Shown here: piece by piece, positions 5,701 through 41,443 of the stretch
How the letters are laid out: every line of letters starts with the position of its first letter
How positions within the stretch are numbered: position 1 is the stretch's first letter
Source of the DNA: a virus
DNA: 45,889 nucleotides
Strand: one strand, 5' to 3'
Virus record (IMG/VR): IMGVR_UViG_3300049796_000005
Span: 1-45,889 of that record
Program-made: the position numbers and the translations under genes
The notes under the pieces: generated by a model
What the model was told of the DNA's origin: nothing
What the model saw: the letters and a program-made list of their open reading frames with translations, nothing else
Database searches by the model: none

Positions 5701-7148
5701 GGATGATCAACCGAGGCATGTCCTCGCTGTACAACAGCGAACTCGCCATGATCAATGCGGGGACTTTCCCAAAGCTTCCGGGCTTCGCGTCGGGCGGTCG
5801 CCTGCCCATTGATCAGGCCCTATCACAGCTCCGTGGAGAGTCCGGCAAGGCCTACCAGTACGGCGGCACCGGAAACCCATCATGGGACTGCTCCGGCTTC
5901 ATGAGCGCGGCATACGCCCTGCTCAAAGGACTTGACTGGCACACCCGATGGTTTACGACCGAATCTAATTTCGGGTCGCTCGGGTTTGCTAGCGGGGTCG
6001 GCCCGTCCAATGGTTTCACCATCGGCGTGCACAACGGCGGCGGCGGGCAGATGAGCCACATGGCTGGGCTGCTTAACGGCGTGCCGATTGAGTCGGGCGG
6101 TAACGGTGTTCGGGTCGGCTCAGGCGCGCATGGAGCCCTTGACGGCCAGTTTGAGAATAAATACTATCTCGTTGGTGCCGGCAGTGGCACGGGGTCTTCG
6201 CGCACAAAGCCGTGGAGCGACAAAGACGAATTAAATCTCCAGTCAGCTACGGTCGCGGTTCAGCAAGCCAAAGAGGCGCAGGCCAGGGCTGCGGGTAACA
6301 AAAACAAGTCACCGGCGGACATCCAGCAGGCTAATCTGCGCGTGCAAAAAGCAGAGCAGCGCGTCAAGGATCTTGAGAGCCAGAAAGCATCGGGTACGTC
6401 TAGTGAGATCGTCCCCAATGCTCCAGCGCTCAATGGCGCGTATAGCAAGGACCAGTTGTCGCAGCGGGATCTACAGCGTGCGGTAGATGATGCAAACGAC
6501 AAGCGTGATGAGGTCTACGCGGATACCAAAGCATCAGACCGGGATCGCGCCAAGGCTGATGACGATTTGCGCAAGGCCATTCTTGCTCTGCAAGAGGGCG
6601 GCAAGGACAAGTCGAGTTCATCTTCCGCGTCTAATCCGGTAGAGCTTATTGGTGACGCGGTTAAGACCGCAGTTACTGGTCAGCTGGACGACGCCCTAGG
6701 TGTGTTCGGCTTGGACAGCAGTCTGGGGGCCACGGGCGCGTTGGTCACGACCATTGCTAATAGGTCCGCTCCGAGCTTCGGCAAGGATGAGCTAGACAAG
6801 CAGGGCCCGGTTACTCCGGGGTCGCCTGACTGGCTTGCGCAGCTGATGAAGACACTAAAGATGCCGGCGTTCCTGCGTGACTCTGGCGGTCCCGTTCCTA
6901 CAGGCTCGGCGGCGATCAACTTATCTGGTGCTACAGAGTGGATGCTGACTAATGACGGCGCGTCGGCGGTCGCTCGCATGGCAGCCGCGGCTAAGGCCGG
7001 ATCTACCACTAATGGGGGGCAATCTGTGGATGCTAGCTGGAATATCGAGCACCTGCACACGGGCATGTCGCAGCGTGAGTATGAGAACGCTGTCCGGATT
7101 CAGCGGGTTGAGCAGCGCCAGCGCGCTAGAAGCTTCATCGGCCGATGA
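2715..7148 (+). CDS. Tape measure protein with NlpC/P60-like peptidase domain
   Basis: 1477 aa from the TTG at 2715, the longest gene, setting tail length. It is Ala/Gly-rich with long helical and coiled-coil stretches, hydrophobic segments at about 400-460 and 485-535, and a C-terminal coiled coil (about 1170-1290). Residues about 1035-1150 carry a peptidase-like unit: a YQYGG segment, D-C-SGF with C1059, then SHM with H1115, consistent with NlpC/P60-type cell-wall hydrolysis during DNA entry. The true start may be upstream: the frame is open from 2661, and codons 2670-2714 encode AGRIDLSVGLSPAS, which resembles usual tape-measure N-termini, with AGGGGTGAGG before it. However, the codon in the starting place (2667) is GTT, not a standard start. 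Confidence 0.9.
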   Translation: MTRSLASFSGLALGAAGLGAAFGSIIKTGNDFTSSLNTLQAVSQATATQMAAVSEKARQLGKDVTLPGTSASDAAIAMTELAKAGFSVEQSMTAAKGTLQLAAAAQIDAATAAQIQAKALNSFGLDATYAAKAADVFANAANASSAEITDVALALQQSGAVAKTFGISLEDTTAAIAVLANAGIRGSDAGTLLKTSLLALTDQGKPAQKAIKDLGLTLYDAQGRFVGLQAEFDQLGAAAKRMTPQQYQAATSILYGSDAARLAGVAANDGAVKFGAMRTALERQGAAAEVAAAKMQGLPGALQQIENSAQDAAIEIYSLIQGPLTALATKGAALIGTATDKISAGLKGLGSTSIDTDFGRGFVDALDRVGDVAGKAYTAIQPVVSGLISFGQESLRTGGTVETLGHGVELLVGTVSALVTVVTPALALLGSVVRIFGELPTGVQLAVGALVLLRLTSSTLVASITTLGARISTLGLNAGLAVFSFRTLSASLGTFGAVTNIAGRAASSFVAALGGPWAIGIAAASIALVSLYSSVKQSEENQKAYEASVRDSAIAQSALTDALVLSQGVFNSDVLSKTTDRVSKFREELENAGKNGADVWQQGLAVVSLGLNESAKNMDDQANSASNAKRALDGLNLTNEKLAEALADDTKFAALISQLQAAGGEGQEAARRLQALRTEITGAQESASHTSPAFGVLSDAVRKLADSSASAEDRTNALKTALDILAGKPVKVAEAVAAYDKSVREVSESTKAAFAATDGLGKALVNVDGSVNTATVNGGKLFDALKNIKDASVAVAAAGGDLTPVFAKNEGQFRALATATGLSVEQIRAMSAATGLVPRNLEILAGLKGADSVQQKLVVIQGLLQTNADGVKIPVNADTQGAIDKLKEIGVKVETVNGEPGIVKVTAVTDEAKRKLQEIQDITLETKSLDVQVKLKGAGADLVLGTGLGQIPAELLPGHAVGGKLPSSGPGTGTTDGILAVDAAGIPRARIDGGEWMINRGMSSLYNSELAMINAGTFPKLPGFASGGRLPIDQALSQLRGESGKAYQYGGTGNPSWDCSGFMSAAYALLKGLDWHTRWFTTESNFGSLGFASGVGPSNGFTIGVHNGGGGQMSHMAGLLNGVPIESGGNGVRVGSGAHGALDGQFENKYYLVGAGSGTGSSRTKPWSDKDELNLQSATVAVQQAKEAQARAAGNKNKSPADIQQANLRVQKAEQRVKDLESQKASGTSSEIVPNAPALNGAYSKDQLSQRDLQRAVDDANDKRDEVYADTKASDRDRAKADDDLRKAILALQEGGKDKSSSSSASNPVELIGDAVKTAVTGQLDDALGVFGLDSSLGATGALVTTIANRSAPSFGKDELDKQGPVTPGSPDWLAQLMKTLKMPAFLRDSGGPVPTGSAAINLSGATEWMLTNDGASAVARMAAAAKAGSTTNGGQSVDASWNIEHLHTGMSQREYENAVRIQRVEQRQRARSFIGR

Positions 7149-10319: not shown

Positions 10320-11314
10320 CTACTCCTTTTATTTCTGCGCCTGATGGTTCTTTTGTTGTGGGTACGATCTCGGGTATCCAGAGTATAACTGAGGCGACAA
10401 TGAAGGCAGCGTTGAAGCTGCCAGTGCTGCCGTCGTTCACGGCTGTGCAAGCAAACGTGGTCTCTGAGGTAAAGCAACCCACGTCGGATGTAGCCGCGGC
10501 GGCGATCACCACAACGGTGATTGTTGGTCAGACTGTCGCACGTAGTGTGTACACGACTAGTGGCACTTGGACCCGTCCGGTGACACCCGCAGGGAAACGT
10601 ATTTCTCGCATAGCCGCCGCGGCCATCAATGGTGGTCAGGGTGGCGTAGGCCCCGTCAACGGAAACGGCGGCGGCGGCGAGGGGGGCGAGGGGGGCGGCT
10701 ACACATATAAGGAGTTCGCTGACGCAGATGTGCCGTCGTCTGTGGCCGTTACGGTTGGCGCCGGAGGCACCGGCGGGGGGAATAACCAACCCGGTGCCTC
10801 CGGCGGGGTGTCATCATTCGGCACATTGGTCGCGGGAAAACAGGGTGTAGCTAATGTTTTAACCGCCCAAGGGGCCATCGGGTCCACCTGTACGCCGGGG
10901 AACGGCGGAAACGGGGGTAGTGGGGAAATATTTGCCGGGAGCAGCACTAATGTCCGCATTAATTATGCGGGGCTTAGAGGGGGTTCATCGGCTCTAGCAG
11001 TTGGCGGCGCTGGCGGCGCTGGCGGCGGTGACTCGTTCAATAATGGCATCGCGGGCTCAGCGGGCGGCCCGGCGGCGACCGATACTCAGATAGTTTCTGG
11101 TGGTGGTGGTGGTGGTGGTGGTGGTGGTACCTCCGCGCAGTCCGGGCTTAACGGCGGGAGTAATGGGCCAGGCGCCGGTGGCGCGGGCGGGGCCCCCGGT
11201 GGTGGTGGAGGAGGCGCCGGCGGCGGGAAGAACAACGCGGGTTCCCGACCCGGCGGCAACGGCGGCAACGGCTGTGTAGCTGTGTGGACATTCTTCGAGG
11301 ACGTGTTGTCGTGA
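10316..11314 (+). CDS. Glycine-rich tail-tip protein (probable receptor-binding or adhesin part)
   Basis: 332 aa, GTG start in GTGA overlap with the preceding stop. The first about 75 residues are an Ala/Val/Thr-rich helical attachment part. The rest is a glycine-rich domain (YTTSGTWTRP, then GG-rich loops interleaved with NGG and GAGG units) of the kind found at the distal ends of actinophage tail fibres and expected to form polyglycine-type helices or beta layers. A (GGT)10 run encodes ten glycines. The following gene begins inside the last codons. Host-range function is inferred. Confidence 0.7.
   Translation: MTTPFISAPDGSFVVGTISGIQSITEATMKAALKLPVLPSFTAVQANVVSEVKQPTSDVAAAAITTTVIVGQTVARSVYTTSGTWTRPVTPAGKRISRIAAAAINGGQGGVGPVNGNGGGGEGGEGGGYTYKEFADADVPSSVAVTVGAGGTGGGNNQPGASGGVSSFGTLVAGKQGVANVLTAQGAIGSTCTPGNGGNGGSGEIFAGSSTNVRINYAGLRGGSSALAVGGAGGAGGGDSFNNGIAGSAGGPAATDTQIVSGGGGGGGGGGTSAQSGLNGGSNGPGAGGAGGAPGGGGGGAGGGKNNAGSRPGGNGGNGCVAVWTFFEDVLS
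11099..11128 (+). repeat. (GGT)10 microsatellite in the tail-tip gene
   Basis: Ten perfect GGT units, in frame, each adding one Gly. Gain or loss of units would alter the loop length without breaking the frame. Confidence 0.9.
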
Positions 11315-36959: not shown

Positions 36960-36991
36960 TTGACACGTTCGATGAGGTGATGTGCTACACT
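36960..36991 (+). promoter_or_regulatory. Candidate promoter for the structured RNA and tRNA
   Basis: TTGACA (36960-36965) with an extended -10 TGCTACACT (36983-36991). The spacing to TACACT is 20 bases, longer than ideal, so the -35 may contribute little. Transcription would begin near 36998. Confidence 0.45.
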
Positions 36992-36997
36992 AAAGCG

Positions 36998-37315
36998 GTG
37001 AGCGACACGTGCGTTTAGTTAGTGCCGCTTGGTCCCGGGTGTGGCTACGGCAGCCCGGGACTGTCTCAATGTGGCCTGCACACCCCTGGGAGTGCAGGAC
37101 CCGCCGGGACCTCCCGATTCCATCGGGCGCCCGGTCGTCGCGTATTCGCGGCAGATCCTAATGTCTGACATTGTGACATTAGTGGGAAGTACTTGCGGAG
37201 GCTCGTTCCCTTCCCGCTCTGGTACCGAGAGCGGGACGCCTGGCTAGCGCCGTAAAGCCATTATAACGATGCCCGCCAAGGCTAGAGCGCAAGCTTCCTT
37301 ACTTCGGCGGGCCAA
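36998..37315 (+). ncRNA. Multi-hairpin non-coding RNA upstream of the tRNA
   Basis: About 320 bases with no convincing gene and at least seven good stems in a row: GTCCCGGG (37032-37039/37054-37061), CCTGCAC (37075-37081/37092-37098), nested CCGGG with CCCGAT/ATCGGG (37104-37134), CGCG (37139-37150), CTAATGT (37158-37164/37176-37182), TCCCGCTCT (37212-37220/37228-37236) and GCCCGCC (37271-37277/37306-37312). The last stem ends three bases before the tRNA. A promoter candidate precedes it. Location next to a phage tRNA recalls large phage RNAs such as GOLLD and ROOL, but no sequence match can be claimed. Confidence 0.6.
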
Positions 37316-37390
37316 CGCGGGGTAGTTCAGAGGCAGAACACCGGGCTCATAATCCGGGAGTGGCGGGTTCGAATCCCGCTCCCGCCACCA
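37316..37390 (+). tRNA. tRNA-Met (CAT)
   Basis: 75 bases with encoded CCA. D arm GTTC/GAAC, anticodon stem CCGGG/TCCGG with loop CTCATAA (CAT, anticodon at 37348-37350), T arm GCGGG-TTCGAAT-CCCGC, acceptor CGCGGGG with TCCCGCC. Position 1-72 is C:C and unpaired, as in bacterial initiator tRNAs (C:A there), but the anticodon stem lacks three consecutive G:C pairs. Elongator Met, initiator-like Met or lysidine-type Ile cannot be decided from sequence. Confidence 0.85.
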
Positions 37391-37438: not shown

Positions 37439-37720
37439 GTGCCACCTAAGAAGCGCGACCCAAGGGATCACAGATCATACAGGGTAGCACGTGCGAAGCT
37501 GCGTCGCGAGTCATCTACATGTCACATATGTGGTGAGCAGATAGACCCAGCACTACAGTACCCGCATGATAAGTCGTGGTCAGCTCATCACGTCGAGCCC
37601 TTAGGTAAGGGCGGTAGCGTGCACGGTCAGATAGTAGCAGCACACCTCGATTGCAATCGTAACCTTGGTGTCAATGATCAGCATGTGTCCGAGCGCATAC
37701 CCACATCGCGTGTGTGGTAG
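37439..37720 (+). CDS. HNH endonuclease near the terminase genes, 93 aa
   Basis: GTG with CAGGAG upstream. C28-x2-C31 and C72 for a structural zinc, W-SAHHVEPL with H50-H51 and a downstream H69-x2-C72-N73 complete the HNH core. Short HNH proteins next to the small terminase are part of the packaging machinery in several HK97-like phages, where they assist cos cleavage. Not similar to the two HNH alleles beside the tail terminator. Confidence 0.8.
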   Translation: MPPKKRDPRDHRSYRVARAKLRRESSTCHICGEQIDPALQYPHDKSWSAHHVEPLGKGGSVHGQIVAAHLDCNRNLGVNDQHVSERIPTSRVW

Positions 37721-37722
37721 CG

Positions 37723-38100
37723 GTGTTAATTGTAGTTATGGGCCCACCCGCAGCGGGCAAGAGCACGTATGTGTTAGATCATGCGGATGTAGATGATATC
37801 ATTATAGACTTTGATACTTTAGCCATAGCACTGGGCTCGCAGGTAGATCACGACCACGCCCATGGTGTAGTACTGATAGCTCAAGCGGCATGATCGGCTG
37901 CGGCAAACGCCGCCCAGACCACGCGCTCGACGGTGTGGTTAATACATGCTCAGCCTAGTGCACAGTCCATCGCGATATACAAGAGACGCGGCGCCAAGCT
38001 GGTGGTTATTGATCCAGGCCAATCGGTCGTCAGAGATCGTATCATACAGCGAGGCTCGACACAAGCCCACCGCTTTGCCGAAGCATGGTATCGCAAATAG
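37723..38100 (+). pseudogene. P-loop (AAA_33-type) kinase gene interrupted by an in-frame TGA
   Basis: GTG at 37723, two bases after the HNH stop. One frame runs through 126 codons to TAG (38098-38100) with a single stop, TGA at 37891-37893. Before it: VVMGPPAAGKSTYV (Walker A) and IIDFDTLAIAL; after it: TRSTVWLIHAQPSAQ, RRGAKLVVIDPGQSVVRDR. The two parts together match the usual length and motif order of small phage P-loop kinases placed between HNH and terminase genes. CGA to TGA (Arg to stop) is the simplest explanation. TGA ends many other genes here, so it is not recoded generally. Read-through or an assembly/sequencing error are alternatives. Confidence 0.65.
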
Positions 38101-40021: not shown

Positions 40022-41443
40022 GTGTTCACGGATGTAGTAATTGGTTTCCCGCAGGTGCCTGACCTGACGCATCAGGAACAGAATATATTAGATCGGCTTA
40101 TCCACCAGTACAAGTGGAAGATGGGTCGTAACCTTCTGCGGTCGCGGTATTACGACTCTCTGAATGTCTTAAAAGACTATGAGATTTCGATCCCGCCGCA
40201 GATGAAGCAGTTTGAGACTGTTGTCGGGTGGCCGGCTAAGGCCGTGGACTCGTTGTCGCGCCGGTGCAAGCTCGACGGTTTTGTCGTACCTAACTTGGAT
40301 ACTGAGTCGCTGGGTATTGACGACATGTGGGCGGATAACCGCATGGAGATTGAGGCGCCACAAGCGCATACCTCCGCGCTTATTCATTCGTGCGCCTTCA
40401 TCGCTACCACGCTTGGCGACGTTTCGATGGGCGAGCCTGAGATTCTTATTACGGCCCGGTCGGCTCTGTCGGCTACGGCTCTGTGGAATCCGCGCACGCG
40501 CCGCCTCGACGCGGCGCTGTCTATCATCAGTTACCGGCAACAGCTGGCGACGGATCTGATAAAAACAGATTTGATTATGTACTTACCTGATCAGGTAATT
40601 CAGGTTTATACGGATGAGCGCGGGATGTGGCAGGTTGAGCGCACTTCGCACTCTCTGGGCCGCGTGCCGGTCGAGGTTTTGGTGTACAAGCCGCGCCTGG
40701 ATCGGTGGGCGGGTTCGTCCAGGATTTCGCGCGCGGTCATGTCGATCACAGATGAGGCTGTCCGCACAGTGTTGCGCGCGGAAGTGTCTGCGGAATTCTT
40801 CTCCTCGCCCCAGCGGTATATCTTGGGTGCCGATCCCGACGCCTTTGAGGGCGTCGACGGCCGTGTCCGCACCGGCTGGGAGGCCATAATGGGGCAGATG
40901 CTGGCGATGTCTAGAGATGAGGAAGGCAATCTGCCTGTGGTGGGGCAGTTCGCGCAGCAGTCTATGGAGCCGCACTTTGCGCATCTTAGGTCGGCCGCCA
41001 CGCGCTTCGCTGGGGAGACAAACTTACCGGTCGGGTCGCTTGGCATCGTCCAGGACAATCCGTCGTCCGCTGAGGCCATTGACGCAGCCAAAGAAGAGCT
41101 GATTAACGAGGCTGAGGACGCCGATACGGTGTTCGGGTATGCGTGGGCGAGCGCGGTTCGTACGGGCCTCCAGTTGCGCGAGAATCGCATGGACATGCCG
41201 CGGGAGTGGCGCAAGTTGACGGCTAAATGGCGCGACCCAAAGACGCCGTCCAAGTCGTCCGCGGCGGATGCGGTGCTTAAGACGGTGCAGGCTTTCCCCT
41301 GGATGGCTGAGTCGCCTACGGCGCTTGAGCAGCTGGGCTGGGACCAGACGACTATTGCACGGGCGCTCGCCGAGAAAGCGAAGATGCCTCCGGTACCTGC
41401 GGCTCCGGTTGCGGTACCTGTGACTAAGCCAGTTACAAAATAG
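40022..41443 (+). CDS. Portal protein (SPP1 Gp6-like)
   Basis: 473 aa, GTG start one base after the TAG of the microprotein. Pattern of the Gp6-like family: LRSRYYDSLNVLKDY, VVGWPAKAVDSLSRR, a central wing domain, RFAGETNLPVGSLGI, then the long helix with SSAEAIDAAKEELI and a crown ending in a Pro/Val-rich tail. Twelve copies form the DNA entrance of the capsid. Confidence 0.9.
   Translation: MFTDVVIGFPQVPDLTHQEQNILDRLIHQYKWKMGRNLLRSRYYDSLNVLKDYEISIPPQMKQFETVVGWPAKAVDSLSRRCKLDGFVVPNLDTESLGIDDMWADNRMEIEAPQAHTSALIHSCAFIATTLGDVSMGEPEILITARSALSATALWNPRTRRLDAALSIISYRQQLATDLIKTDLIMYLPDQVIQVYTDERGMWQVERTSHSLGRVPVEVLVYKPRLDRWAGSSRISRAVMSITDEAVRTVLRAEVSAEFFSSPQRYILGADPDAFEGVDGRVRTGWEAIMGQMLAMSRDEEGNLPVVGQFAQQSMEPHFAHLRSAATRFAGETNLPVGSLGIVQDNPSSAEAIDAAKEELINEAEDADTVFGYAWASAVRTGLQLRENRMDMPREWRKLTAKWRDPKTPSKSSAADAVLKTVQAFPWMAESPTALEQLGWDQTTIARALAEKAKMPPVPAAPVAVPVTKPVTK

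Follow-up and report, generated by a model that had tools for sequence, protein, structure and literature searches.

The viral record under study (IMG/VR IMGVR_UViG_3300049796_000005) comprises 45,889 bases and may be incomplete; it was analysed in full and is called the window below. Rhodococcus phage Sleepyhead has the most similar large terminase (49.8% amino-acid identity), so the phage studied here probably has a Mycobacteriales host. Upstream of the terminase genes lies a hairpin-rich leader followed by a tRNA gene (Table 1). The strong stems reported at 36960-37315 in the initial annotation are present there, and the multi-hairpin region is a real structured RNA feature. Its 356 nt fold at -159.2 kcal/mol (z -3.42), a stability reached by 0 of 100 shuffled sequences, and 37000-37315 has the lowest fold z-score (-4.61) among 145 windows tiled along the plus strand of the record. 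Only short, non-conserved reading frames cross the leader, in agreement with its presumed non-coding status, and it belongs to no Rfam family, as had been supposed: at gathering and relaxed thresholds alike, the tRNA alone reached threshold in the window. The tRNA does start right after the stems, about 4 bases past the last hairpin. The promoter thought to precede them holds up in part: a promoter-like pair can be recognized by eye, with 8 nt between its -10-like TGCTACACT and the first RNA module; the spacer, however, measures 20 nt, and a consensus promoter scan did not pick up the pair.

Table 1. Features of the leader and the adjacent tRNA in the window.
Feature	Position	Strand	Basis
Promoter-like TTGACA (36960-36965) and -10-like TGCTACACT (ending at 36991)	36960-36991	+	by eye
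Module A, orphan copy of class-1 RNA, P2 shortened	37000-37066	+	covariance model, E 1.2e-9
Module C, CCTGCAC-ACCCCTGGGA-GTGCAGG, like HP1 of class-2 RNA	37075-37098	+	identity with L096
Module D, GCCGGGACCTCCCGAT-TCC-ATCGGGCGCCCGGTC, like HP2 of class-2 RNA, GGAAGTGA linker missing	37103-37136	+	blastn, L104
Hairpin E, 8 bp, CTAATGTC/GACATTAG	37158-37182	+	sequence
Hairpin F, 9 bp, TCCCGCTCT/AGAGCGGGA	37212-37236	+	sequence
Short hairpin G, GGCT...AGCC	37242-37259	+	sequence
Module B, orphan AbiF-type RNA	37265-37311	+	95.7% (E 2e-11) and 93.9% (E 7e-10) identity to Rhodococcus plasmid hairpins
tRNA, anticodon CAT (called Met), encoded CCA	37316-37390	+	ARAGORN; Rfam RF00005, 57.1 bits

Two further features lie 3' of the tRNA. 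An HNH endonuclease gene comes directly after it, at 37439-37720; a phage homing endonuclease is reported in a recent paper (PMC13096335) to amplify anti-defence loci. A P-loop ATPase-like reading frame at 37714-38100 (PHROG 4581 and 2071) appears to be split into two frames and is possibly a broken gene.

Similarity searches found the whole region in no other phage; pieces of it were recovered, and the set of genomes differed from piece to piece. Judged from these comparisons, the region combines three or more small RNAs, whose bacterial counterparts each adjoin a protein gene that the phage lacks. In a blind search, all 45,889 bases were compared with 126 bacterial flanks (29.7 kb), i.e. the RNA-bearing stretches beside the partner genes described below, and 31 of the 32 best matches fell at 37007-37312, where they cover modules A, C/D and B in order. 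The single match elsewhere is at position 11107 (E 7e-4), and the best match in a control with reversed flanks had an E of 1.3. The stretch at 37146-37264, about a third of the leader, has no assigned counterpart RNA, and hairpins E, F and G within it have no relatives among the phages and plasmids searched. The location upstream of the terminase genes had suggested a role in DNA packaging, an idea abandoned when most homologues proved to be in tRNA arrays at other places. Matches in Gordonia phages Nordenberg and Brandonk123 were rejected as coding DNA without the matching stem.

Module A is an orphan copy of an RNA that we designate class 1. Its strong P3 hairpin (about 37031-37063) has the loop UGUGGC-UACG-GCAG and is shared with Rhodococcus phage E3, where T-A pairs are replaced by C-G through changes on both sides; it also occurs in the viral contigs L010, L011, L014 and L018, and in variant form in mycobacteriophage Courthouse. 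The loop sequence GGTGTRGCTACGGCAGCC was found in actinobacterial genomes, and the loci with paired flanks (n=18) reveal an RNA of about 80 nt (81 nt in the model) in which a closing stem, GAGCA/TGCTC, is combined with two hairpins, P2 and the fixed-loop P3. A -10-like element lies shortly before the first base of these bacterial RNAs and a T-rich stretch often follows. Fifteen of the 18 bacterial loci have, tail-to-tail with the RNA and within about 150 nt of it, a gene for the same protein of about 226 residues. A covariance model built from 20 bacterial RNAs, with the phage copies excluded, matches module A over its full length (1-81/81) and nothing else in the window; the same model detects a further seven orphan copies, spread over six phage records (two in L014 and one each in E3, Courthouse, L005, L018 and L010) at E 1e-21 to 1e-7. 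Across 28 copies, 96.7% of cells are paired and both sides have changed in 18 of the 22 pairs, values that 0 of 500 shuffles attain; covarying stems in homologues had been named as support in the initial annotation. The alignment was fitted to the model, and sliding the partners abolishes the covariation signal. Variable stems around constant loops are the pattern of an RNA that a protein reads.

Several class-1 loci deserve separate mention. Courthouse (L019, 3969-4049) carries a complete class-1 RNA between the genes for the head maturation protease and the major head protein, away from any tRNA, and the same core is found in IMG/VR contigs L052-L054. In L014, two tRNA-Ser-like sequences that are absent from the ARAGORN output flank a class-1 RNA (1570-1850). 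The chromosome of Gordonia oryzae (L042, 5848-5931) has a class-1 RNA near a DUF262-like gene, and the class-1 partner protein was not found in this genome; the RNA is perhaps an orphan borne by a prophage or island. Viral contigs L012, L013, L016 and L017 contain the exact module A loop with poorly paired flanks, and these matches look like chance.

The class-1 partner of about 226 residues has no notable match in Pfam, NCBIfam or PADLOC. Its AlphaFold2 model is confident (pLDDT 83.6) and most similar, among solved structures searched with Foldseek, to RNase HII enzymes (E 4e-4), with modest TM-scores of about 0.4. Conserved residues include D29-E30 and D195 (numbering of L047), present in every aligned member, and E150, present in the majority. 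When neighbouring proteins were searched against Pfam, the class-1 partners tested gave no match, and the divergent member at L061 gave DUF3800 at E 0.16, a weak hit below the cut-off. Divergent members occur in 50 of 395 Actinomycetes genomes, with up to seven matches in one. The flanks of L059-L144 show a family that is widespread in Actinomycetes and accompanied by at least two covarying RNA classes, and further members, e.g. those at L061 and L066, have yet other structured RNAs alongside. The RNase-H-fold family and its two RNA classes are undescribed in the databases used. We predict from this analysis that the family consists of RNA-controlled toxins or defence effectors; its RNAs are called antitoxins here by extrapolation from AbiF.

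Modules C and D (37075-37136) resemble the second of these classes, which lies tail-to-tail beside most of the recovered divergent members of the family. Class-2 RNAs (48 regions) have the order HP1, GGAAGTGA, HP2 and TTCGCG, and pair changes on both sides are seen. CCCCTGGGAGTGC of module C (37083-37095) is identical at 13 of 13 positions to HP1 of the class-2 RNA at L096, in an alignment that extends over HP1 and HP2 (37083-37142; E 0.16 alone). Module D matches the RNA at L104, which adjoins an RNase-H-fold gene, at E 2e-7 (1e-6 with the whole window as query), and its sequence repeats the HP2 of that RNA, GCCGGGACCTCCCGATGGAATCGGGCGCCCGG, almost letter for letter; L110 and L114 are also matched. 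The exact module D pattern was not found in viral contigs. A general class-2 model proved too loose for the window, scoring the modules at only E 0.13 for want of the linker and finding an equally good match at 40757, and the assignment of C and D to class 2 is for these reasons less sure than those of A and B.

Module B has the composition AACGATG + CCCGCC-AAGG-CTA-GAGC(GCAA)GCTT-CCTT-ACTTC-GGCGGG. Its closest relatives lie directly upstream, by about 20 nt, of Abi family genes on three Rhodococcus plasmids, and the products of these genes belong to Pfam Abi_2 (E 9e-42 to 5e-41). Chromosomal Abi_2 genes of Mycobacteriales also have a promoter-like element and a hairpin directly upstream, of other sequences. 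For two of the plasmid RNAs, the alignment to the Rfam abiF model (RF03085) spans the whole model but is weak (26.8 and 23.1 bits against a gathering threshold of 37), and the window itself gives no match to this model up to E 10. On two of the plasmids a -10-like element is shortly followed by AACGATG and then the hairpin, and most phage copies keep this AACGATG. The tetraloop varies (GCAA, GTGA, TTCG or longer loops) while most bulge letters are fixed, which is how an RNA hairpin would behave. Gordonia phage Syleon, mycobacteriophages Aegeus and Baudelaire and the viral contigs L005-L007 and L219 also carry module B. In Aegeus it fits exactly between tRNA-Tyr and tRNA-Phe, so that processing of both tRNAs would release it. 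The module B pattern was not found in 399 Mycobacteriales genomes and was found on plasmids. Most of 13 viral matches to the 5' part of the module are due to chance, L219 being the only one both new and real, and a match in L020 likewise looks like chance. Taken with its relatives, module B is an orphan relative of AbiF-type RNA as judged from alignment, not a complete system.

Other combinations of such elements are seen in two places. The minus strand of L005 (1-420) holds a class-1 RNA, tRNA-Met, an Abi_2-leader-like hairpin (CAGCCTGCC..GGGTGCGGGCTGG) that resembles other Mycobacteriales Abi_2 leaders, module B and tRNA-Ser. L014 (about 1900-1985) and L018 (about 5715-5790, both minus strand) have in common a structured element, GCTATGCGCTGGRACCGAAAGACGGYGGRCCGGAGTTGCARACCTCCGYTATCAA, upstream of phage tRNAs, which is unrelated to modules A-D and is possibly another borrowed RNA.

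Neither the RNase-H-fold protein nor Abi_2 was found in the phage records tested, including the complete genomes of Syleon, Aegeus, E3 and Courthouse; the same protein searches recovered both proteins from positive-control bacterial genomes and a plasmid. Module B has the sequence traits of a mimic, namely homology of a phage RNA to a host antitoxin RNA in the absence of the toxin: its bacterial relatives stand directly upstream of Abi_2, and the phage record has the RNA and no Abi_2 gene.

We consider it likely that the region is a phage anti-defence transcript, in which orphan antitoxin-type RNAs are arrayed in tandem in the leader of a tRNA. Host-RNA copies that lack the protein and lie beside tRNAs recur in several phage lineages, for which reason we interpret them as RNA-based molecular mimicry, as in the case of pseudo-ToxI. 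The transcript would start near 37000 and carry the class-1 RNA, the class-2-like RNA, hairpins E-G, the AbiF-type RNA and the tRNA, and cleavage by RNase P at the 5' end of the tRNA could plausibly free the leader RNA. In the infected cell, each module would stand in for the host RNA and bind the corresponding host protein in trans; once the host RNA is lost after phage takeover, the toxin would stay held by the replacement antitoxin of the phage, and abortive infection would be prevented. One putative target is an AbiF-type HEPN RNase, which is a known type III toxin; the others are proteins of the RNase-H-fold family, which are predicted effectors. In this manner several bacterial suicide defences would probably be switched off by one transcript. 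The target class of module B is a proven toxin family, while a toxin role for the partners of A and C/D is a prediction; transcription, processing, binding, neutralisation and RNase-H-fold toxicity are steps that we infer.

The best-surviving alternative, although an unlikely one, is that the hairpins are processing or stability elements of tRNA clusters, serving as cleavage sites or 5' protection, and that their likeness to the bacterial RNAs is that of a shared hairpin fold. It would account for the position of the phage copies of module B, all of which, among those checked, precede tRNAs of differing identity (Gly, Phe, Ser and Met) by a few bases, and of some class-1 copies (L010) placed just upstream of tRNAs in the same way. 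The bacterial copies, however, adjoin Abi_2 or RNase-H-fold genes and not tRNAs, E3 and Courthouse too have their copies away from tRNAs, and the letters of loops and bulges are conserved across 40-80 nt, far beyond what a generic hairpin would need. Slightly less probable still is that the modules are decaying leftovers of recombination with defence-bearing plasmids or prophages and have no present function. The shortened module A and the linker-less module D would suit such decay, phage tRNA clusters do recombine, and here the next gene after the tRNA encodes an HNH endonuclease; yet compensating changes keep the stems, conserved loops persist in several phage lineages, and different modules have been gathered in one place, always without the protein.

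It is very improbable that the leader is one integrated, GOLLD/ROOL-like structured RNA of about 300 nt with a function of its own. This idea, raised by the comparison in the initial annotation, draws on the strong global fold and the neighbouring tRNA, and it gave way to a tandem of small independent RNAs: homologues keep only individual modules, which are found singly and in different orders in other genomes, local and independent folds are predicted by the module models, and Rfam offers no match. Equally improbable is that the phage RNAs activate or redirect host nucleases, e.g. as guides against host RNA, rather than inhibit them, since switching on an abortive-infection toxin should harm the phage and the abiF RNAs studied are antitoxins and not guides (PMC12373285, PMC12737573), even though AbiF and Cas13 have a common ancestry (PMC12737573) and the RNase-H-fold family is similar to DUF3800, itself noted beside non-coding RNAs and Cas12 systems (PMC10910872).

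Beyond this locus, we lean slightly towards the general view that the tRNA transcripts of actinophages contain multivalent arrays of RNAs mimicking antitoxins, and that two of the mimicked RNAs come from an undescribed, RNA-controlled RNase-H-fold family. To our knowledge, the one known case of a phage RNA mimicking a host antitoxin is pseudo-ToxI, directed against a single system, ToxIN. With at least three unrelated host RNAs and a tRNA in one short transcript, a few hundred bases might suffice to disarm several defences. If this is true, the arrays constitute a readable list of the RNA-regulated defences that these phages meet, and they offer a possible explanation for non-coding stretches beside phage tRNAs. 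They also point to a family of RNA-associated RNase-H-fold proteins that, like its two covarying RNA classes, is in no database used.

Among known systems, GOLLD and ROOL are likewise phage-associated structured RNAs adjoining tRNA genes, but the leader is modular, much shorter, unmatched in Rfam and made up of RNAs with bacterial counterparts. The DUF3800-associated RNA motifs of Rfam resemble classes 1 and 2 in that a structured RNA adjoins an RNase-H-fold protein, and the divergent protein at L061 is weakly like Pfam DUF3800; the protein family nevertheless falls below the Pfam cut-off (PF12686), and the Rfam DUF3800 RNA models matched neither class 1 nor class 2 when run on the class-1 and divergent loci. 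For module B the nearest system is abiF RNA (RF03085), including AbiFr and RCd22. AbiF is a type III toxin that abiF RNA neutralises by direct binding, in cis and in trans, and RCd22 of Clostridioides difficile binds and neutralises AbiF (PMC12373285); the bulge nucleotides of abiF RNA block the RNase activity of AbiF (PMC12737573). Module B is nearly identical to Abi_2-leader hairpins and is short with a single-stranded bulge; it differs in being an orphan and in sharing a tRNA leader with RNAs of unrelated classes, and its plasmid relatives score below the Rfam threshold while the window is unmatched by the model. By its title, as cited in PMC12737573, Rince 2000 describes a DNA region of phage sk1 that protects another phage from AbiF. 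An abiF sRNA has also been predicted in the genome of cyanophage S-CREM1, where, according to the passages on this phage (PMC9964418), it is a single Rfam match and not part of a multi-class array; an anti-AbiF role is not proposed in those passages. The closest functional parallel is pseudo-ToxI, a non-coding RNA by which phage phiTE, itself without the toxin gene, copies a host RNA antitoxin and escapes ToxIN (PMC3475682). The phiTE locus repeats one antitoxin, whereas the proposed mimic array described here joins at least three RNA classes to a tRNA.
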